Assembly: GCF_009882935.1 (NCBI RefSeq) | Contig: NZ_WTVA01000014.1 | Location: 1-64,000 of the forward strand | Length of the DNA stretch: 64,000 nucleotides | Reading direction: 5' to 3' | DNA from: Sneathiella chungangensis | Lineage (GTDB): Bacteria > Pseudomonadota > Alphaproteobacteria > Sneathiellales > Sneathiellaceae | Shown: positions 11,744-21,033 of the stretch, one piece after another | Layout of the letters: each line of letters begins with the position of its first letter | Position numbering within the stretch: position 1 is the stretch's first letter | Translations under genes and position numbers: made by a program | Notes under the pieces: generated by a model | The model's input: only the letters and a program-made list of their open reading frames with translations | Databases searched by the model: none | Told to the model about the DNA's origin: nothing

Positions 11744-11904
11744 TTTCCCGCGAATGCCTCCTTCAGTGCCATACCATAAGGTGCCGCGTTATCGCCGAGA
11801 CAGCCTGCAAGCGCAAGAAAAATTTGGTAACCCGGCTTGAGTTTCAAAGGCGGATCGGCGCAAGATGAGCCATGCGATGCGCAGGATATGAAGAGGCTAC
11901 AGAA

Positions 11905-12561
11905 ATGCCCGGCAAAACCATTGAACTCTTCAACTTCGAATTCAGTGTTTATGGCCGAATAGTCAAAATCATTCTGGCGGAAAAGAGAATCGCGTATGAC
12001 ACCCATCCGGTCAATCCCTTCGCTGACGATTTGCCGCGCAACTACCTCTCGATACATCCCTTCAAAAGAGTCCCCGCACTCCGGCATGGGGAATTCATTC
12101 TTTATGAGACAAACGCGATTACGCAGTATCTCGACGAGACTTTTTGCGGGCCGTCGATGCAGCCAGACAACGCGACCGAACGGGCCAAAATGCGGCAGAT
12201 CATTTCTATTATTGACAGTTATGGCTACATCCCGCTCGTGCGAAAAGTCTTTTCAGAACGCGTCTTCAAACCGGCGTTCGACGAAGAAACAAATGAAGCC
12301 ATTTTGTGCAAGGGCTTGGAAGAAAGCGCACCGGTATTGGCCGCTCTTGAAAATCTGGTATGCGATCTGGGATATATGGCGGCGGCGCACTATTCACTCG
12401 CCGATGCGCATGTCATCCCGATGATCGATTATTTTGTGATGGCCCCGGAAGGCGCCGCCATGTTCAACAACTATCCAAAACTGACCTTATGGTGGGATGG
12501 GGTAAAGGAGCGGCCCAGCACCATTTCTACAAGACCGGTTTTACTATCCGCAAAGGCGTAG
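11905..12561 (+). CDS. Glutathione S-transferase family protein
   Basis: 218-residue cytosolic GST-like protein: thioredoxin-fold N-domain (ELFNFEFSVYGRIVKIILAEK, with the Ser of SVYGR at the catalytic position, then KRVPALRHGEFILYETNAITQYLDE containing the cis-Pro and the ES/ET-N-A-I motif) and an all-helical C-domain with LADAHVIPMIDYF. GST-like genes are known neighbours of some box benzoyl-CoA clusters, where they may scavenge reactive epoxide; here it lies 400 bp from boxB on the opposite strand. Start at 11905 follows GAAGAGG. Confidence 0.88.
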   Translation: MPGKTIELFNFEFSVYGRIVKIILAEKRIAYDTHPVNPFADDLPRNYLSIHPFKRVPALRHGEFILYETNAITQYLDETFCGPSMQPDNATERAKMRQIISIIDSYGYIPLVRKVFSERVFKPAFDEETNEAILCKGLEESAPVLAALENLVCDLGYMAAAHYSLADAHVIPMIDYFVMAPEGAAMFNNYPKLTLWWDGVKERPSTISTRPVLLSAKA

Positions 12562-12630
12562 ACATCCAGATGCAAAAGTTGAAGATAGGCTCGATTTTGA
12601 TTGAGGAATTTTTACAGGTAGGAATTCGAC

Positions 12631-12942
12631 ATGCGTCTCATCAAGCCAACTGATTTTGAAGGTGAAAATCCCTGGGACGCACTGGATATCGAAAAGATAG
12701 CGAACGCCACAGTTCGCCTTCACTGGACAGACCAACCCTATATTTGGCATGTGAATGATGGTGCAGAAGTCTTCGTCCTGTTGGATGGCAGGGTCGATAT
12801 GCATGTAAGAGAGGACGGTCAGGAAAAAATTCTATCGCTTTCTCCCGGCGATATTTTCCATGCGGAAGCCGGCGATGAGCATAAAGCTGTCCCGCTTACG
12901 CTGGCCCGTATTCTGGTGATCGAGACTGAAGGGAGTATTTAA
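12631..12942 (+). CDS. Small cupin-domain protein
   Basis: 103-residue single cupin barrel. Motif 1 is WHVNDGAEVFVLLDGRVDMHV and motif 2 is LSPGDIFHAEAGDEHKAVP; His and Glu metal-ligand candidates are present. It could be a sensor, an isomerase or a small dioxygenase; nothing in the sequence decides. It has a good ribosome site (AGGTAGGA) and lies 69 bp after the GST gene, converging on boxB, so it may belong to the aromatic-acid cluster. Confidence 0.8.
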   Translation: MRLIKPTDFEGENPWDALDIEKIANATVRLHWTDQPYIWHVNDGAEVFVLLDGRVDMHVREDGQEKILSLSPGDIFHAEAGDEHKAVPLTLARILVIETEGSI

Positions 12943-12963
12943 CTCCCGGTATCAGAATTGCGC

Positions 12964-14388
12964 TTATTGCAAATGCACATATTCATATTCGACAGGCAAA
13001 TTGTTGATGCCGCGATCGGGGGCGGCGATCCAGCCCGCCATTTTCCCGGGTTCGGTTACCTGCTGCATCAAGCTATGAATATATGCCCGGTCGCTTTCTG
13101 ACGGGAGGAACTCGTCGTGACGGCGGTTGAATTCCGCCTCTGAAATGATCTCGCCATTCGGTGCGGTCGGCACGCCAGCCCAGGCGCCAATATTGCGGCG
13201 AAACCGGCTTGAGGGTAATTCAATCACAAAGTCGATACCTGACTTCTTGATCATCCGGTTCCAACGCGTGACGCCGACCATGCAATCCTTGATATAGGCG
13301 TTGCGCACCTGATCGTTGATTGCACTGCGAACGGCAACCTCCTCAATACGGACGCCGCCTTTTTCATCCGGCACTTCTATGTTCATAACCGAATCACGCG
13401 CGATATGGTCTTCATATCCTCGCTCGTCCGGCCGCCCCTTGATCCCATTGGCGAAGGTAATGGCCGCATTCGAGGAAATTTCCGCACCGAACAGATCCAT
13501 GCAGGAGGAGAACCAGAAATTTACAAAGCGCTTCAAAGTTGGCAAATCAATGACCCCCGCCTTCCGTAATACGGCCGGATCATCCGTTTTAAGTTCGTTC
13601 ATAATCTCCAGGGTTCGCCTGATGATCCGGCTGATCCCTGTCTCGCCCACATACATGTGATGGGCCTCCTCCGTCAGCATGAACTGACAGGTGCGTGCGA
13701 GGGGGTCAAAAGACGATTCGGCTAGGCATTTCAGCTGGTACTTCCCGTCTCGGTCCGTGAAATAGGTGAACATGAAGAAAGAAAGCCACTCGCTGATCGG
13801 CTCGTTAAAGGTGCCTAGAATACGCGGGTTGTCCTCGCTTCCCGAATGGCGCATCAGGAGATCCTCCGCCTCCTCCCGGCCGTCGCGGCCAAAATAGGCG
13901 TGCAGAAGATATACCATCGCCCAGAGATGGCGTCCCTCCTCCACATTGACCTGGAACAGGTTTCGCAAATCGAAAAGCGACGGGCAGGTTTGCCCAAGCA
14001 ATCTTTGTTGTTCGACGGAGGCAGGTTCCGTATCGCCCTGCGTCACGATCAGCCGGCGAAGGATAGACCGGTACTCGCCCGGAACCTGCTGCCAGACCGG
14101 TTTGCCGAAATCATCGCCAAAACCGATGGTGCGGTCTTTCTCCTGATCGGCAAGGAAGATGCCCCAACGATAATCCGGCATCTTCACCGCGCCGAAAGTC
14201 GCCCACCCCTTGGCATCGACGGAGGTCGCGGTGCGAAGATATACGTCGCTGGTCTGAAATCCCTCCGGCCCCAGTTCCTGCCACCAGTCCAGAAAACGGG
14301 GCTGCCAATGCTCCAGCGCACGCTGCAGGCGGCGGTCATTGCCAAGATCGACATTATTGGGGATTCGCTCCTGATAATTGATCGCCAT
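12964..14388 (-). CDS. boxB: Benzoyl-CoA 2,3-epoxidase, di-iron subunit BoxB
   Basis: 474-residue class I di-iron oxygenase that converts benzoyl-CoA to the 2,3-epoxide. The two carboxylate/His iron motifs are seen as NVEEGRHLWAMVYLL and LTEEAHHMYVGETG, separated by the segment NEPISEWLSFFMFTYFTDRDG. Length matches known BoxB proteins (about 475). ATG 14388 has AAAGGAGAGTATAGG in front, inside the end of boxC; a 52-residue longer frame is rejected. It is the second gene of a boxC-boxB operon. The reductase partner BoxA, usually adjacent, is not encoded in this window. Confidence 0.96.
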   Translation of the reverse strand: MAINYQERIPNNVDLGNDRRLQRALEHWQPRFLDWWQELGPEGFQTSDVYLRTATSVDAKGWATFGAVKMPDYRWGIFLADQEKDRTIGFGDDFGKPVWQQVPGEYRSILRRLIVTQGDTEPASVEQQRLLGQTCPSLFDLRNLFQVNVEEGRHLWAMVYLLHAYFGRDGREEAEDLLMRHSGSEDNPRILGTFNEPISEWLSFFMFTYFTDRDGKYQLKCLAESSFDPLARTCQFMLTEEAHHMYVGETGISRIIRRTLEIMNELKTDDPAVLRKAGVIDLPTLKRFVNFWFSSCMDLFGAEISSNAAITFANGIKGRPDERGYEDHIARDSVMNIEVPDEKGGVRIEEVAVRSAINDQVRNAYIKDCMVGVTRWNRMIKKSGIDFVIELPSSRFRRNIGAWAGVPTAPNGEIISEAEFNRRHDEFLPSESDRAYIHSLMQQVTEPGKMAGWIAAPDRGINNLPVEYEYVHLQ

Positions 14389-14389
14389 C

Positions 14390-16033
14390 CTATACTCTCC
14401 TTTTGTCAAATTCCGCTTTTGTGCCACTGCCGAACAGTTTGAGAGCACCTTTCTCACCAACTGCGTTGGGACGGTTAAAAATCCAGTTCTGCCAGGCGGA
14501 AAGCCGCCCGAATATTTTGGTTTCAGCTGTCTCGCGACCGCCAAATCTCAGGTTGGCCTCAAGCCCGGTGAGCGCATCTGGAGACAGGCTCGCCCGCTCT
14601 TCTATGAGAAGACGGATTTCCTCCTCCCAGTCGATGTCATCGGGAATGAAGGTCACCAATCCCTTTTCTTCGGCCTCGATCGCCCCGATCTTCTCGGCAA
14701 CCTGTTGCTTTAGAACATTAAGGACAGTCTCTTCTTCATAAAAGCGGCGGGCCAGGCGGGACATGCTGTTCACTGCCACATAGGCTCCGAAATTCATCGG
14801 ACTCAAGGCAATATGCGGGGGATTGCCGTCTTCTTCAGCGATGTCGAGCATGTAAATTCGATCGGCGGCAAGCGCAAGCTCATACAGCGTTCCTGCGAAA
14901 CAGGAGCCTTCCTCGACAAGCGCGAACAGACTGCGAGAAGAAACATCGAGGCGCGCTAGCGTGCGTCGCAACATGCCAATCACCTCTCGGACCAACCAAT
15001 CTTCCTGCTGCTCGGCGAGGATCGCATCGACCCGCAGAACATTATCGATATCACCCCGTGTCTTCAAAAGGATCGTTCCGATATCCTCGTTATTCGCGCG
15101 CAGCATCAGGATGGCATCATCCAGCTCGCGCGCCATGGCCAGAGGCCACCAGTTCGCACCTTCCTCATGGATCGTCTTGAGGGTATCGGCCATGTTGTTG
15201 TCCGGCGCAGAAACCGTCAAGGTCGCGCAACCAAGCGTCGCGTCAAGCGTGACATCGACATGACGGTAATGATATCCAAGATCGTCAATCTTTCTGGCCA
15301 GCGGCGGGAGGATAATACCCTCTGCCTGCTCTGGCCGGCGACTGTCGGCCGCCAGTTCCCTTGCGCGTTTCTTTACCTTCTCATCGAAGGAGTTGCGCGG
15401 CACGACTTCGTCAACCAGTCGCCAGTCTTTCGCCCGGCGCCCCCGCACGCCATCGGGATTGGTGCAGAAAACATCGGCAAGGTCATGGCGGACTTTTCGT
15501 TTGTCGGTGAGACGCGTAAGCCCTCCCGTCCCTGGAAGAACGCCAAGGAGCGGAACTTCCGGCAGGCTCACCGCGCTGGACCGGTCGTCAATCAGGAAGA
15601 TTTCATCGCAGGCAAGCGCAAGCTCATAGCCGCCGCCGGCTGTAGTCCCGTTGCAGGCGGCAAGGAACCTGATGCCGGAATAACGGCTCGAATCCTCGAT
15701 ACTATTGCGGGTTTCATTCGTGAATTTGCAAAAATTGACCTTCCATCCGTGAGACGATGTCCCAAGCATGTAAATATTCGCGCCAGCGCAGAACATTTTC
15801 TCCAGTCCACTGGTGATAACGACGGTACGAACCGTCGGATGCTCGAAGCGAATGCGCTGGAGCGCATCATGCAACTCAATGTCAACGCCAAGGTCATAGG
15901 AGTTGAGCTTGAGCTGATAACCGGGGACGAGCCCGCCGTCTTCGTCAACGGCCAGCGTGAGTGTCGCAACGGGGCCGTCGACAGACAGGCGCCAATGGCG
16001 ATAGTTGTCTGGATGCCGGTCAAACGTAATCAT
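14390..16033 (-). CDS. boxC: 2,3-epoxybenzoyl-CoA dihydrolase BoxC
   Basis: 547-residue enzyme of the crotonase superfamily that opens the ring of 2,3-epoxybenzoyl-CoA, giving 3,4-dehydroadipyl-CoA semialdehyde and formate. Seen: MFCAGANIYMLGTSSHGWKVNFCKFTNETRN, LAACNGTTAGGGYELALACDEIFL and LPEVPLLGVLPGTGGLTRLTDKRKVRHD, which identify BoxC, then a second crotonase-like half with EEGSCFAGTLYELALAADRIY. ATG 16033 is taken; an in-frame TTG at 16048 would add five residues. The stop TAG is one base before the boxB ATG. The upstream region includes a TTGACA-like -35 (complement of 16093-16098) inside the end of boxR, so the operon may have its own promoter. Confidence 0.96.
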   Translation of the reverse strand: MITFDRHPDNYRHWRLSVDGPVATLTLAVDEDGGLVPGYQLKLNSYDLGVDIELHDALQRIRFEHPTVRTVVITSGLEKMFCAGANIYMLGTSSHGWKVNFCKFTNETRNSIEDSSRYSGIRFLAACNGTTAGGGYELALACDEIFLIDDRSSAVSLPEVPLLGVLPGTGGLTRLTDKRKVRHDLADVFCTNPDGVRGRRAKDWRLVDEVVPRNSFDEKVKKRARELAADSRRPEQAEGIILPPLARKIDDLGYHYRHVDVTLDATLGCATLTVSAPDNNMADTLKTIHEEGANWWPLAMARELDDAILMLRANNEDIGTILLKTRGDIDNVLRVDAILAEQQEDWLVREVIGMLRRTLARLDVSSRSLFALVEEGSCFAGTLYELALAADRIYMLDIAEEDGNPPHIALSPMNFGAYVAVNSMSRLARRFYEEETVLNVLKQQVAEKIGAIEAEEKGLVTFIPDDIDWEEEIRLLIEERASLSPDALTGLEANLRFGGRETAETKIFGRLSAWQNWIFNRPNAVGEKGALKLFGSGTKAEFDKRRV

Positions 16034-16094
16034 GGGTGCGCGATCCAATTTTATGAAATATAGTTATCCTACCTAATATGCACTTTAATTCATG

Positions 16095-17012
16095 TCAAGC
16101 AGTTTGCCGCTCGTTCAACTTGAGTAGACCTCCCACCACTTGCCTCAAATCCTCCAAGCTCTCCTCGACCGTCCGGCCCGACGTATTGCAAGTGGCGTCG
16201 GCCCGGCTGTACAGGGGCGTCCTTGCGGAGAGGATCTGCTTAAGATCCGCCATCGCCTCGCGATTACCGACCATCGGGCGCATGTCGCCCTGGGCGACAA
16301 CCCGGGACATATGCTCTTCCGGCCGCGCGCACAGCCAGATCACATGCGTGCGCCGCAAGAGAAGGGAGAAAGTCTGCTCGTCAGCGACAATACTTCCGCC
16401 GGTGGCGATCACCACCTCGTCCTGATTGGTGACGATATCCGTAAGGCAGCGGTGCTCCAGCCGCCTGAAGGAGGGCTGCCCGGCAAGCGAGAAAATTTCA
16501 TCAAGGCCGGCACCGAATTCTTTTTCGATCCGTTTATTGAGTTCAATAAAGCCATATCCCAACTTCTCGGCGAGACGCGCGCCAAGTGTCGATTTTCCGG
16601 CCCCGCGAAGACCGATCAGGGCAATCCGGCGACCCTTCGCCGCATCTTCGGACTTCGCCAGCCGCTCGCGAATAACGCCGATTGCGATGGCCAGCTGATC
16701 CGACGGCAGCCGCTTCGCGAGCTGATAGAGCCCCCTCATTTCCGGGCTGAGCTGATCACCGACGGCGACGAGGTCGATCAACGTCATGTCCATCGCGGCG
16801 GCAATCTGCCGGAGGACCAACATGGAGGCATTTCCCTCACCCGATTCCAACTTGGCGAGATATCGCTCCGACACCCCGGAGTCGCGGGCAAGTATTCGGC
16901 GCGTCATGCCCCGCTTGGCTCTGGCCGCCCGGACATGAGCTCCCAGCTCCGAAAGAAAATCGCCAGCCTGACCACTCTCCCGTCGCGAGCTCTCAAGTGA
17001 CACCTTGCTCAT
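16095..17012 (-). CDS. boxR: BoxR/BzdR-type regulator (XRE HTH fused to shikimate-kinase-like domain)
   Basis: 305-residue fusion. Residues about 20-80 are an XRE helix-turn-helix (LGAHVRAARAKRGMTRRILARDSGVSERYLAKLESGEGNASM); residues about 125-295 are a shikimate-kinase-like domain with P-loop IGLRGAGKSTLGARLAEKLG. This architecture is that of BzdR/BoxR of Azoarcus, repressors that release DNA on binding benzoyl-CoA. It lies upstream of boxC on the same strand and is divergent from the flavodoxin-benzoate ligase run, so it probably controls both. Single TGCA tetramers occur in both upstream regions (near 16078 and 17053), but I cannot show a paired operator. Confidence 0.93.
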   Translation of the reverse strand: MSKVSLESSRRESGQAGDFLSELGAHVRAARAKRGMTRRILARDSGVSERYLAKLESGEGNASMLVLRQIAAAMDMTLIDLVAVGDQLSPEMRGLYQLAKRLPSDQLAIAIGVIRERLAKSEDAAKGRRIALIGLRGAGKSTLGARLAEKLGYGFIELNKRIEKEFGAGLDEIFSLAGQPSFRRLEHRCLTDIVTNQDEVVIATGGSIVADEQTFSLLLRRTHVIWLCARPEEHMSRVVAQGDMRPMVGNREAMADLKQILSARTPLYSRADATCNTSGRTVEESLEDLRQVVGGLLKLNERQTA

Positions 17013-17107
17013 TTGTTTCTCACCGCCATTTGATCATTATCTGCTGGACAAAATGCATTATATTTCCTATTTCGTCATTTGAGTAGTTGTTTTTGGAGAA
17101 AAGCGAT

Positions 17108-17572
17108 TTGCCGGATCAAATTAAAATCCTCGTTAGCACGATGACGGGAACCGCAGAGCTTGTGGCTGAAGAAATTGCCGACGCGTTTACGGCCAAAGGG
17201 CAGAAATCCGAAATTTTGCTGATGGATGATCTTGATGCCGAAGTTCTGGCAAACGGCTCCGCTTTTATAATATGCACCTCGACTTACGGGCAGGGCGACG
17301 TGCCGGACAACGGACAAGCCTTCATGGAGAACCTGAATTCTCTGGCCCCCGATCTTTCAGGCATTAAATACGGTGTTTTCGCGCTCGGAGACCTGACCTA
17401 TCATCAGACATTCTGCAACGCGGGCAATTTGTTTGACGCGGCCTTTCAGAAATTCGGCGCACAGCGCATCGGGCAAATCATGCGCCATGATGCCTCTTCA
17501 GGAGAACTACCGGAAGATTGCGCCGCCGAGTGGGCGGAGGAATGGCTCGAGGAGCTCGTGGCAACAGCGTAG
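17108..17572 (+). CDS. Short-chain flavodoxin (MioC-like) in the box cluster
   Basis: 154-residue FMN-binding flavodoxin. The first strand and phosphate loop are KILVSTMTGTAELVAEEIA; ICTSTYGQGDVPDNGQAF and VFALGDLTYHQTFCNAG are the 50s and 90s loops that hold the flavin ring, giving a short-chain MioC/CysJ-like flavodoxin. No ATG fits: the start is TTG 17108, with TTGGAGAAA nine bases upstream. It is divergent from boxR and precedes benzoate-CoA ligase. With no boxA nearby, it is the obvious candidate electron carrier to BoxB; that is inference, not family knowledge. Confidence 0.85.
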   Translation: MPDQIKILVSTMTGTAELVAEEIADAFTAKGQKSEILLMDDLDAEVLANGSAFIICTSTYGQGDVPDNGQAFMENLNSLAPDLSGIKYGVFALGDLTYHQTFCNAGNLFDAAFQKFGAQRIGQIMRHDASSGELPEDCAAEWAEEWLEELVATA

Positions 17573-17677
17573 GATCGCGGCAGGACATGCTTGCCGAAGA
17601 GCCCGATAAAAATATAAACTATTCCGGCGCGCAAAAAACAACAACACGTTGGCGCCGGTATTCTTGGGAGGAATGGG

Positions 17678-19231
17678 ATGGCCATCGGAACCGACGCGGC
17701 GGGAGAATTCAATGCAGCCGTCGACCTAATCGACCATAATCTGACGGCAGGGCGCGGACAGAAGCCCGCCGTTATCGATAGATCGGGCGCGCACAGCTAT
17801 CAGGAACTGAGCGACAACATCAATCGATTTGCCAACGCATTGAAGCAGCTCGGCATCCAACAGGAACAACGCATTATCCTCTGCCTCAATGACACGGTCG
17901 ATTTTCCCATCTGCTTTCTGGGTGCGATCAAAGCGGGCATTATTCCGGTACCCATAAACACGCGTTTCACCGCAAAAGACTATGCATTTATTCTCGACGA
18001 CAGCAGTGCTGTTGCCCTTATTGTTTCGGACGACCTGCTTGCCGGATTCGAGAGCCATCTGAAATCCCATCCCGCTCTCAGGCATGTCATCGTCTCCGGT
18101 AGCAATAGCGCAGGACATGACTCCCTTTCGGATATGATTGCAGGGCAAAAGCCGGAATTCGAACCGGCCAGAACGATGCGGGACGCCATGTGTTTCTGGC
18201 TCTATACATCCGGCACGACGGGAATGCCCAAGGGGACCGTTCACTTGCACGGGAGCATGCGCGCGACGGCCGAACTTTATGCGAAGGAAACCGTCGGCAT
18301 CCGGGAGGATGACGTGACATTCTCGGCAGCGAAACTATTCTTTGCTTACGGTCTCGGCAATGGCCTCAGCTTTCCCTTTTCAGTGGGCGCGACCGCCATT
18401 CTTCTCGACGGACCGCCGACGCCCGACGCCGTATGCAACATACTTAGAAATCAGGCACCGACAATTTTTTACGGGGTGCCGACGCTTTTCGGAATGTTGC
18501 TCGCAAGTGGTCTTTTGCCAAAACCGGGGGAGCATCGCCTGCGCTTTTGCACGTCAGCGGGAGAGGCCCTGCCTGCAGAACTTCTCGCGCGCTGGCAAGA
18601 GCAGGTCGGCGTCGATATCCTGGACGGCATCGGCAGCACGGAAATGCTGCATATCTTTCTTTCGAACAGGCCGGGCGATGTCCGGCCGGGCTCTACCGGC
18701 AAGCCTGTGAAAGGATATGATATCCGGCTCACCGACGATGATGGACATCCCGTCAAACCCGGCGAGATGGGCGCGCTTGAAATTTCCGGGCCGTCGAGCG
18801 GCCTGATGTACTGGAACCGGCGCGAAAAAAGCCTCGAAACTTTTCAGGGCCCCTGGACCCGCGCCGGAGATAAATACAGGCAGGATGAAGACGGCTATTA
18901 CATTTATTGCGGCCGTACAGACGATATGCTGAAAGTCGGTGGCATCTATGTCTCGCCCTTCGAGGTCGAGGCCGCCCTCATCGAACATGAGGCAGTTTTG
19001 GAAGCCGCTGTCGTCGGCAAGGCCGACGCCGACAAGCTGATCAAACCGAAAGCGGTAATTGTGGCCAAGGAGAAAAATTTCGACGCGGATGCCTTGGGCA
19101 TGGAACTGAAACAATTCGTGAAAGATCGGCTCGCCGCGTTTAAATATCCGCGATGGATCGAATTTGTCGATGAACTCCCCAAAACAGCGACCGGGAAAAT
19201 CCAGCGGTTCAAACTTCGTGAACCGGAATAG
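17678..19231 (+). CDS. bclA: Benzoate-CoA ligase
   Basis: 517-residue ANL-superfamily ligase that activates benzoate through benzoyl-AMP to benzoyl-CoA. Motifs: the P-loop-like YTSGTTGMPKGTVH, GIGSTEMLHIFLSN (A5, aromatic-acid ligase signature), GRTDDMLKVGGIYVSPFEVE (A8 hinge) and the catalytic lysine in PKTATGKIQRFKLRE (A10). The STEMLHIFLSNRPGDVRPGSTG stretch is typical of benzoate/4-hydroxybenzoate-CoA ligases. A strong TGGGAGGAATGGG precedes the ATG. It lies between the flavodoxin and an MFS transporter in an apparent rightward operon that feeds BoxB/BoxC. Confidence 0.94.
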   Translation: MAIGTDAAGEFNAAVDLIDHNLTAGRGQKPAVIDRSGAHSYQELSDNINRFANALKQLGIQQEQRIILCLNDTVDFPICFLGAIKAGIIPVPINTRFTAKDYAFILDDSSAVALIVSDDLLAGFESHLKSHPALRHVIVSGSNSAGHDSLSDMIAGQKPEFEPARTMRDAMCFWLYTSGTTGMPKGTVHLHGSMRATAELYAKETVGIREDDVTFSAAKLFFAYGLGNGLSFPFSVGATAILLDGPPTPDAVCNILRNQAPTIFYGVPTLFGMLLASGLLPKPGEHRLRFCTSAGEALPAELLARWQEQVGVDILDGIGSTEMLHIFLSNRPGDVRPGSTGKPVKGYDIRLTDDDGHPVKPGEMGALEISGPSSGLMYWNRREKSLETFQGPWTRAGDKYRQDEDGYYIYCGRTDDMLKVGGIYVSPFEVEAALIEHEAVLEAAVVGKADADKLIKPKAVIVAKEKNFDADALGMELKQFVKDRLAAFKYPRWIEFVDELPKTATGKIQRFKLREPE

Positions 19232-19237
19232 ACCGCA

Positions 19238-20461
19238 ATGACGAACTGGACAGCGGGGCAGAAATGGCGTTCCGTGCTTCTGCTTGCGTTATGCCAAGTC
19301 ATGGCTCTCTCGCTCTGGTTTTCGGCGACCGCCGTCATTCCGATCCTGAAATCGCAATATGGATTGAGCGGCCTGCAGGCGTCTTTATTTTCAAGCGCGG
19401 TTGCTATCGGGTTTGTGAGCGGCACCCTGGTCAGCGCAGTCCTGAGCCTCGCCGATCGCATTCCCCCCAGAACCTTCTTTGCGTCCGCGGCTCTGATCGC
19501 GGCGAGTGCAAATCTCGCAATTATCTTTTTCGACCCTACCTCCGCAATTGTCGTTGTCTTTCGCTTTATCACTGGCGTCTGCATGGCGGGCATTTATCCG
19601 GTCGGGATGAAAATGGTCTCAACCTGGGCAAAGCGGGATACCGGCCTTCTCGTTGGCCTTCTGGTCGGCGCGCTCACGATCGGCAGCGCCTTTCCGCATA
19701 TTCTTAATCTCCTTGATACCAGCGGCCTTGACTGGAAACTGACCCTGATGACGAGCAGTCTTCTTGCGGTGGGCGCAAGCGGCCTAATCGCCTTCGTCAC
19801 TCTTGGAAGCGACATGCCGAAAGCACCGCCGTTTGACCCTTCCCTCGCCTTTTATGCCTGGACATACAAACCTCTCCGTCTCGCCAATTTCGGTTATTTC
19901 GGCCATATGTGGGAACTCTATGCCATGTGGGCGTGGATCGGCCTTTTTCTGTTCGAAAGCTTCCGCATCAGCAACCTGGAAAACGGCCAATTCTTTGCCA
20001 ACCTCGGCACATTCGCGACGATCGCTGCTGGCGGACTGGGGAGCCTGATTGCCGGCCTCGCAGCAGATCGCTTCGGTCGGACAACAGTCACGATCACCGC
20101 CATGGCGTTCAGCGGGACATGTTCGGTGGCCGTCGGTTTCCTCTTCGGCGGCTCCCCCCTCCTGCTGATCCTCGTTTGCCTCATCTGGGGGATATCGATC
20201 GTCGCCGACTCCGCGCAATTTTCAACCTGCATAATCGAACTCAGCCCGAGAAACATGATTGGCACCATGCTGACCATCCAGACATGCATCGGCTTTCTGA
20301 TCAGCCTGGCGACCATTCATCTGATCCCGCTTTTTATCGATTTGCTAAGCTGGCACTATGCCTTTGCTCCGCTTGCTATTGGCCCGCTGCTCGGGGTTAT
20401 CGCGATGGCGAAACTCCGTGCCCAGCCGGAGGCGATGTCCCTGGCAAATGGCCATCGATAA
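19238..20461 (+). CDS. MFS transporter, probably aromatic acid uptake
   Basis: 407-residue integral membrane protein with about 12 hydrophobic helices. The motif-A loop between helices 2 and 3 is LADRIPPRTFF and its repeat between helices 8 and 9 is AGLAADRFGRTTVT. It starts 6 bp after the benzoate-CoA ligase stop, so the two are translated from one message. By position benzoate or a related acid is the likely substrate; the sequence is not the classic BenK/PcaK type, so this is inferred. Confidence 0.82.
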   Translation: MTNWTAGQKWRSVLLLALCQVMALSLWFSATAVIPILKSQYGLSGLQASLFSSAVAIGFVSGTLVSAVLSLADRIPPRTFFASAALIAASANLAIIFFDPTSAIVVVFRFITGVCMAGIYPVGMKMVSTWAKRDTGLLVGLLVGALTIGSAFPHILNLLDTSGLDWKLTLMTSSLLAVGASGLIAFVTLGSDMPKAPPFDPSLAFYAWTYKPLRLANFGYFGHMWELYAMWAWIGLFLFESFRISNLENGQFFANLGTFATIAAGGLGSLIAGLAADRFGRTTVTITAMAFSGTCSVAVGFLFGGSPLLLILVCLIWGISIVADSAQFSTCIIELSPRNMIGTMLTIQTCIGFLISLATIHLIPLFIDLLSWHYAFAPLAIGPLLGVIAMAKLRAQPEAMSLANGHR

Positions 20462-20547
20462 ACCCGTTGACGGCAGCAGGGTTGATTTTGACGTGAAGAA
20501 AGCCAAATACAACAGTGTTAACGGGCGCGCATTTTTAGGGGAATATC

Positions 20548-21033
20548 ATGATCAAGGGACTTCATCACAACGCCTACCGGTGCCGGAACTCTGAAGAAAC
20601 GCGAAAATTCTATGAGGATTTTCTGGGCCTTCCCCTTGCCGACGCCCTTTCGATCAGCGAATCGAAGACAGGTCGACGGACGGATGTTCTCCACACATTC
20701 TACCGCATGGACGACGGATCGTTTCTTGCTTTCTTCGAAGCGCCTGATCAGGAATTCGAATTCAAGGATCAGCACGACTATGACCTCCACATCGCGCTGG
20801 AGGTGGATATGGACAGCCTTCACAAGATGTTCGCCAAAGGCAAGGAAATGGGCATCGAAACCCGCGGCATCTCCGATCACAAATCGATCCATTCGATTTA
20901 CTTCCGCGATCCGAACGGCTATGTGATCGAACTGACCGCAAAAATTCCCGAAAAAACGCCGGATCCGGAAACTGCCGCCGCAAAGGCTCATGAACTGCTG
21001 AAGAAATGGAATTCGGAACACGCCGCCGCGTAA
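20548..21033 (+). CDS. VOC-superfamily (glyoxalase/dioxygenase-fold) protein
   Basis: 161-residue vicinal-oxygen-chelate protein with paired beta-alpha-beta modules. Candidate metal ligands are His6 in IKGLHHNAYRC, the His of DLHIALEVD and the Glu of GYVIELTAK. About 25 C-terminal residues form a charged helical tail. It has a good ribosome site (TTTAGGGGAATATC) and follows the MFS gene by 86 bp on the same strand, so it may be the last gene of the benzoate operon. Whether it is a dioxygenase, lyase or binding protein cannot be decided. Confidence 0.8.
   Translation: MIKGLHHNAYRCRNSEETRKFYEDFLGLPLADALSISESKTGRRTDVLHTFYRMDDGSFLAFFEAPDQEFEFKDQHDYDLHIALEVDMDSLHKMFAKGKEMGIETRGISDHKSIHSIYFRDPNGYVIELTAKIPEKTPDPETAAAKAHELLKKWNSEHAAA

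Follow-up and report, generated by a model that had tools for sequence, protein, structure and literature searches.

A stretch of 64,000 nucleotides of Sneathiella chungangensis DNA (contig NZ_WTVA01000014.1, positions 1 to 64,000; the whole stretch is referred to here as the window) contains a gene cluster for the aerobic benzoyl-coenzyme A (benzoyl-CoA; box) pathway in which we found no gene for the reductase BoxA and in which a short-chain flavodoxin gene lies between the genes for a BoxR-type regulator and a benzoate-CoA ligase. Our data indicate that this locus probably encodes a BoxA-independent box pathway, in which the diiron benzoyl-CoA 2,3-epoxidase BoxB receives its electrons from a dedicated flavodoxin that is most likely reduced by reduced nicotinamide adenine dinucleotide phosphate (NADPH) via an FprA-type flavoenzyme. 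BoxA, a reductase that uses NADPH, flavin adenine dinucleotide and [4Fe-4S] clusters, is the described reductase of the box pathway, and BoxB is the only enzyme needing reduction in the recurrent set of boxC, boxB, boxR and ligase genes. We infer the direction and the partners of electron transfer from the gene content, a genome without a BoxA match, an intact BoxB active site, gene linkage and separate BoxB branches.

Absence of BoxA and integrity of BoxB

A profile built from 13 BoxA sequences gave no match in the window even at an E value of 10, in agreement with the preliminary description of this DNA, which had seen no BoxA gene there and had proposed a search of the whole genome. Across the 3.81 Mb assembly (15 contigs, 99.98% complete), no protein exceeded the TIGR03224 cut-off of 459.2 bits, and the genome thus lacks a recognizable BoxA reductase of the canonical pathway. 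The weak TIGR03224 matches were three: one reductase part, at 41.5 bits the best match in the genome, and two small ferredoxin-like proteins. The protein behind the 41.5-bit match is a BenC-like reductase that itself falls below the BenC cut-off.

The remaining core of the pathway is present. BoxB, BoxC, the regulator and the ligase of the window all exceed their NCBIfam cut-offs, and the BoxC dihydrolase and benzoate-CoA ligase share one cluster with BoxB. The window BoxB matched the BoxB structure of Azoarcus (Aromatoleum) evansii (3per) with 678.7 bits. The iron ligands in that structure are Glu120, Glu150, His153, Asp211, Glu240 and His243 (PMC5489048); all six are kept in the window BoxB and are invariant in 177 of 177 aligned BoxB rows, and the substrate residues are intact as well.

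Two BoxB types in the order Sneathiellales

We asked how flavodoxin and BoxA are distributed among all 25 genomes supplied for the order Sneathiellales, 22 of which contain BoxB (genomes, loci and contigs carry our own G, L and C numbers). Two BoxB types were found: 13 genomes contain the type of the window (758-775 bits), eight contain another type (892-918 bits), and one genome of a sister genus scored 851 bits. A flavodoxin is present in 13/13 genomes with the window type, in 0/8 genomes with the other type and in the sister-genus genome, while BoxA exceeded the cut-off in 0/13, 6/8 and 0/1 of these genomes, respectively; P values for this contrast carry no correction for kinship. The flavodoxin gene shares a contig with boxB, at a distance of a few kb, in 12 of the 13 window-type genomes; in G014 the two genes are on different contigs. 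The three genomes of the order without BoxB contain neither flavodoxin nor BoxA. A comparison of L225 with the window shows that the two types also have different gene orders and surroundings, and ten alignment columns separate the two BoxB groups.

Linkage of flavodoxin to boxR and a BoxB branch

Flavodoxin is linked to the box locus. In all 53 loci whose stretch includes a flavodoxin, its gene is divergent from boxR and less than 600 bp away (44-472 bp), and the ligase gene lies within 1 kb of the flavodoxin gene in 32 of them. BoxB and flavodoxin distances are correlated among the flavodoxin loci (Mantel r 0.85; 0/2000 permutations as high), as expected of genes travelling together.

We used FastTree to build a BoxB tree of 177 distinct rows, drawn from genomes of the order and the class and from 80 named loci; each row was labelled flavodoxin, BoxA or none from the stretch around its boxB, a few labels being set by hand and four stretches being longer than the rest. 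The branch that contains the window (75 rows, support 96) comprises 54 flavodoxin rows, 1 BoxA row, 8 rows with none and 12 undetermined rows, versus 7, 40, 40 and 15 among the other 102 rows. Two changes between flavodoxin and BoxA are needed on this tree. Given how few independent contrasts have support (see below), the tree speaks more for joint inheritance of a single module than for repeated independent exchanges. Among the rows of the window branch labelled none or undetermined, G399, G031 and G328 have a flavodoxin gene that adjoins boxR outside the boxB stretch; L150, in the same branch, has a weak flavodoxin match (34 bits).

Both partners occur together in a few loci. Two loci from metagenome-assembled genomes (MAGs), L139 and L142, contain a boxC-boxB(type I)-boxA-boxB(type II) tandem with boxR and a divergent flavodoxin upstream, and L167 shares the boxB-boxA-boxB order but shows no flavodoxin in its stretch. 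For the named loci, BoxA was searched for in 50 of the genomes behind the 80 loci (the other 30 were not searched) and exceeded the cut-off in 7/50, namely the genomes of L139, L142, L162, L167, L172, L181 and L183; L162 and L172 are flavodoxin loci whose genomes hold BoxA elsewhere. The myxobacterial or deltaproteobacterial boxB-boxC loci L181, L183, L184 and L186 lack both BoxA and flavodoxin in the stretch, and the genomes of L181 and L183 hold BoxA elsewhere. Among plasmid records, 11 contain BoxB at E≤1e-50 (identity up to 60%) and 83 have a flavodoxin match, all below 60% identity and none above 46% among the 25 matches listed.

Flavodoxin and BoxA across the class

BoxB exceeded the cut-off in 81 of the 385 genomes sampled for the class. 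BoxA did so in 13 of these 81 (10/76 in one search, plus G002, G005 and G015 from the search of the order); G253 contains a partial BoxA match of 415.9 bits close to a contig end. Flavodoxins of at least 150 bits were found in 33/81 genomes with BoxB and in 6/304 genomes without BoxB over the cut-off, and none of the latter six was seen beside boxR, boxB or boxC, in stretches judged by eye, one of them just 3.3 kb long. Box-linked flavodoxins, that is, near boxB or adjoining boxR, a definition made after looking at the data, occur in 0/13 BoxA genomes and in 29/68 others (p=0.003); among the 29, G209, G316 and G393 were assigned from contig coordinates alone and several from a boxR recognized by eye. 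The survey of other genomes that the preliminary description had called for shows flavodoxin going with the absence of boxA, both within the order and along the BoxB tree, and more weakly across the class. Neither of the two observations that it had named as refuting its proposal was made.

A candidate reductase

The preliminary description had suggested that a flavodoxin replaces BoxA and is perhaps fed by a housekeeping ferredoxin-NADP reductase. Co-occurrence supports the part proposed for the flavodoxin; for the reductase, our data favor the FprA family. Two findings make this family more likely than a plain ferredoxin-NADP reductase: PaaE and the BenC-like reductase were the only PF00175 proteins detected in the window genome, and an FprA-family gene lies behind boxB on the same strand, 3-2113 bp off, in 13 of the 53 flavodoxin loci. 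We therefore replaced a plain Fpr-type donor with FprA in our proposal. The reductase encoded behind boxB in L138 belongs to this family by sequence, with 220.2 bits to FprA (1lqt) and 210 bits to adrenodoxin reductase (1cjc). In L140 and L272, fprA is present and no flavodoxin is found in the stretch. The window genome contains two FprA relatives, one on C12 and one on C15.

FprA was found in 55 of 78 chosen genomes (E≤1e-50). Outside the order, it is present in 23/27 genomes with a strong flavodoxin (that of G116 is not box-linked), in 2/11 BoxA genomes (G219 and G311, both with an unlinked flavodoxin) and in 8/15 genomes with neither partner in the box locus, some of which have a weaker flavodoxin match elsewhere. 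This grouping is our own, and the 11 BoxA genomes include G253 and G087.

In the pathway that we propose, NADPH would reduce an FprA-type (adrenodoxin-reductase-like) flavoenzyme, which in the window genome would be one of the two FprA-type proteins encoded away from the locus. This flavoenzyme would reduce the flavodoxin, as the linkage in 13/53 loci suggests, and the flavodoxin, a predicted electron carrier with flavin mononucleotide (FMN), would pass two electrons to the diferric site of BoxB in place of BoxA. BoxB, an ordinary diiron epoxidase, would then epoxidize benzoyl-CoA and BoxC would open the ring. Replacement of one donor by another carrier is plausible.

The flavodoxin and its paralogues

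The protein belongs to the short-chain flavodoxins by its Flavodoxin_1 domain, fold and motif. The segment T18-E24 (TMTGTAE), which we take to be the FMN phosphate loop, is invariant in 10/10 aligned flavodoxin rows. An AlphaFold model made with 10 sequences had a mean predicted local distance difference test score of 85.4, and its best PDB match was cindoxin 4oxx (E 2.1e-12, template modelling score 0.80), which is also the second-best match of the flavodoxin by sequence. Fourteen NCBIfam families of named flavodoxin subfamilies (MioC, PRK08105, FldA, CysJ and others) match the protein, none of them at its cut-off; the best scores were 119.5 bits for PRK08105 (cut-off 160) and 112 bits for MioC (cut-off 158).

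The window genome encodes a second flavodoxin, 46% identical to the first, away from the box cluster and followed directly by the FprA-type gene on C15 (G000:C15, L217:5850-7581). In L301 and L302, from two genomes without BoxB (G107 and G221), a flavodoxin gene lies a few kb from an FprA-like gene, beside transporter genes named by eye. A paralogous flavodoxin adjoins a PaaA-like diiron protein in 4/6 loci checked, the exceptions being L314 and L315; at least three of the four (L226, L227 and L312) are near phenylacetate-type genes, also named by eye. The PaaA-like protein of L226 scored 78 bits to PaaA (cut-off 280). It is possible, though doubtful, that these loci represent a general class of diiron epoxidases that receive electrons from a flavodoxin and act on aromatic CoA esters, with a BoxB branch and a PaaA-like branch in which the paralogous flavodoxin could replace PaaABCE, and that modules of NADPH, FprA, flavodoxin and epoxidase travel between bacteria as units.

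Opposing evidence and alternative explanations

Several observations weigh against a flavodoxin-fed BoxB. Within the order, G009 (99% complete) and G016 (66%) contain the other BoxB type, boxR being the next gene after boxB (L219 and L220), and have neither BoxA over the cut-off nor a flavodoxin; therefore, BoxA can be absent without a flavodoxin. Across the class, the exclusion between flavodoxin and BoxA is weaker genome-wide and depends on counting box-linked flavodoxins only, since any strong flavodoxin occurs in 3/13 BoxA genomes and 30/68 others (p=0.22, n=81; not significant), and the linkage P value ranges from 0.007 to 0.05 under stricter counts. G087 contains the window BoxB type beside BoxA, and its flavodoxin is at a contig end, where linkage cannot be told. 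Neither partner is present in 38/81 BoxB genomes of the class (BoxA over the cut-off, flavodoxin of at least 150 bits; the 38 include G253); absence of BoxA is common in the class sample and flavodoxin explains less than half of such genomes. Families f56, f75 and f102 (our numbering) are examples with neither partner. On the BoxB tree, four genomes of one family in the window branch (G079, G200, G295, which has the L147 sequence, and G371) have neither partner genome-wide, and L140, L146 and L167 contain no flavodoxin in stretches whose genomes were not searched for it. The independent pairs on supported branches number six, which is not significant, and we dropped this test as support because such pairs are too few. 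FprA was not found at E 1e-50 in 4/27 flavodoxin genomes; inside the order 22/25 genomes have it regardless of their BoxB type (the remaining three are 56-66% complete), and we therefore rejected the idea that it marks the flavodoxin type within Sneathiellales. Lastly, the window genome encodes PaaE (499.6 bits, cut-off 420.8).

This last point bears on a different donor. BoxB might be fed by PaaE of the phenylacetate pathway, by the BenC-like reductase or by a general ferredoxin, with the flavodoxin having another role or only helping. Both reductases are encoded in the genome, and the class genomes with neither partner, as well as G009 and G016, where boxB is not followed by boxA and flavodoxin is absent, are in keeping with a shared donor. 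We regard it as unlikely, since it leaves unexplained the divergent arrangement of flavodoxin and boxR in every one of the 53 loci, the tie of flavodoxin to one BoxB branch and the presence of fprA in the same locus in 13 of them. Furthermore, PaaE serves its own complex and BoxA has no direct similarity to PaaE (PMC4498308). That a BoxA gene exists and was missed, through an assembly gap or strong divergence, is very improbable. The genome is split over 15 contigs and the profiles used could overlook a very divergent BoxA, but the assembly is nearly complete, the 13 related genomes likewise gave no BoxA score above the cut-off, and in six of the eight sister genomes that search did detect BoxA next to boxB; as both the whole-genome profile search and the relatives are without BoxA, we rejected this explanation. 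There is equally little reason to view the cluster as a decaying relic left after loss of boxA. Neither boxA nor a boxD-type dehydrogenase was found in the window, as a relic would have it; however, the reading frames are open, the iron ligands of BoxB are invariant, and the same layout occurs in Alpha- and Betaproteobacteria and in MAGs titled Gammaproteobacteria and Acidobacteriaceae.

Gene content of the locus

The genes named in the preliminary description (boxC-boxB, BoxR-type regulator, ligase, transporter, glutathione S-transferase (GST), cupin and vicinal oxygen chelate (VOC) genes) were all recovered with NCBIfam or Pfam profiles, the cupin just under its cut-off (Table 1). The family of the regulator, NF006015, carries the name 'anaerobic benzoate catabolism transcriptional regulator'. 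The TTG start and the position of the flavodoxin gene were described correctly; the start itself is probably the TTG at 17108 and not 17087, which gives the longest frame, because a GGAG motif sits nine bases before the in-frame TTG at 17108. For BoxB, an ATG start at 14388 is more likely than the longer TTG frame. One aldehyde-dehydrogenase query from a BoxA locus, whose BoxD label is our own, found no BoxD-type dehydrogenase in the window, the part of the genome that was searched. Among flavodoxin loci, the same query exceeded 400 bits in L176, L228 and L273 only; L108 and L130, on the same list, are further stretches of the L228 and L273 genomes.

Table 1. Features of the box locus in the window, and loci with a paralogous flavodoxin
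Feature	Position	Strand	Evidence
GST-like protein, accessory	11872..12561	+	GST_N_3 60.5 bits (Pfam cut-off passed)
Small cupin, accessory	12631..12942	+	Cupin_2 26.4 bits, slightly below cut-off 27.2
boxB, diiron benzoyl-CoA 2,3-epoxidase, flavodoxin-linked branch	12964..14388	-	TIGR03225 765.5 bits (cut-off 499.1)
boxC, dihydrolase	14390..16048	-	TIGR03222 913 bits (cut-off 712.3)
boxR-type regulator, helix-turn-helix (HTH) and shikimate-kinase-like domain	16095..17012	-	NF006015 374.5 bits (cut-off 204); HTH_3 and SKI
Divergent intergenic region between boxR and flavodoxin gene	17013..17107	.	GGAG at 17095-17098, read from sequence
Short-chain flavodoxin, proposed BoxB electron donor	17108..17572	+	PF00258 102.5 bits (Pfam cut-off passed)
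Benzoate-CoA ligase	17678..19231	+	TIGR02262 758.4 bits (cut-off 375.25)
Major facilitator superfamily (MFS) transporter, possibly for benzoate	19238..20461	+	MFS_1 92.8 bits (Pfam cut-off passed); substrate inferred from position only
Glyoxalase/VOC-family protein, accessory	20548..21033	+	PF00903 35 bits (Pfam cut-off passed)
Paralogous flavodoxin and PaaA-like protein	L226:6042-7475, L227:5655-7041, L312:6208-7500, L313:1372-2907

Relation to known systems

The box pathway of A. evansii has the same BoxB, BoxC, BoxR-type regulator and ligase families as the window and identical iron ligands; it has BoxA, whereas the window cluster has a flavodoxin gene instead. The known partners of FprA and adrenodoxin reductase are iron-sulfur ferredoxins; the Mycobacterium tuberculosis FprA/adrenodoxin reductase family is that of the L138 reductase, whereas the partner proposed here is a flavodoxin. 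Cindoxin, a flavodoxin-like protein, carries electrons from an NADPH-dependent reductase to the monooxygenase P450cin (PMC9687028), and a dedicated flavodoxin feeding a monooxygenase therefore has precedent. Both systems would use a dedicated flavodoxin-like donor, with a heme P450 as the target in one and a diiron epoxidase in the other, and nothing shows common ancestry of the two donors beyond the flavodoxin family. PaaA is a diiron relative of BoxB that likewise acts on a CoA ester (PMC4498308); unlike the window BoxB, PaaABCE has several subunits and takes its electrons from PaaE, which has a [2Fe-2S] domain.

Earlier work had already reported box clusters that lack BoxA. One survey set aside, as having incomplete context, 13 ligase homologues for which the BoxA or BoxB gene was missing and read the chromosomal box cluster of Paraburkholderia xenovorans LB400, which has no BoxA, as incomplete and helped by a second cluster (PMC10803450). 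By their description, these printed clusters resemble the window in the absence of BoxA, and the main text of that paper never uses the word 'flavodoxin'. BoxB and BoxC were reported from a SAR324 genome in a paper whose main text does not contain boxA (PMC4782131), and a paper on UBA5794 actinobacteria names boxBC (PMC12008989). In the open-licence PubMed Central literature, a scope outside which most subscription papers fall, we found no description of a flavodoxin as BoxB donor and no paper that combines boxA, boxB, benzoyl-CoA and flavodoxin; where papers mention flavodoxin alongside box or benzoyl-CoA terms, the relevant passages place it in other contexts. Thus, the enzymes are known and BoxA-less box clusters have already been noted, and, within this literature, the flavodoxin-linked variant of the box pathway is new.

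Implications

A rule that discards clusters without a BoxA or BoxB gene as incomplete context would drop most of the BoxB genomes sampled in the class, given that BoxA was found in just 13/81. The layout described here is also carried by records that are not labelled MAGs, and so probably by cultured strains; Polaromonas sp. A23 and Sneathiella sp. HT1-7 are examples that have it and gave no BoxA match. A flavodoxin donor has no iron-sulfur cluster and could suit iron-poor or oxygen-rich settings. Together, our data suggest that a large BoxB branch usually has no BoxA gene and is linked to its own flavodoxin, and that the wiring of a common pollutant-degrading pathway often differs from what has been described.

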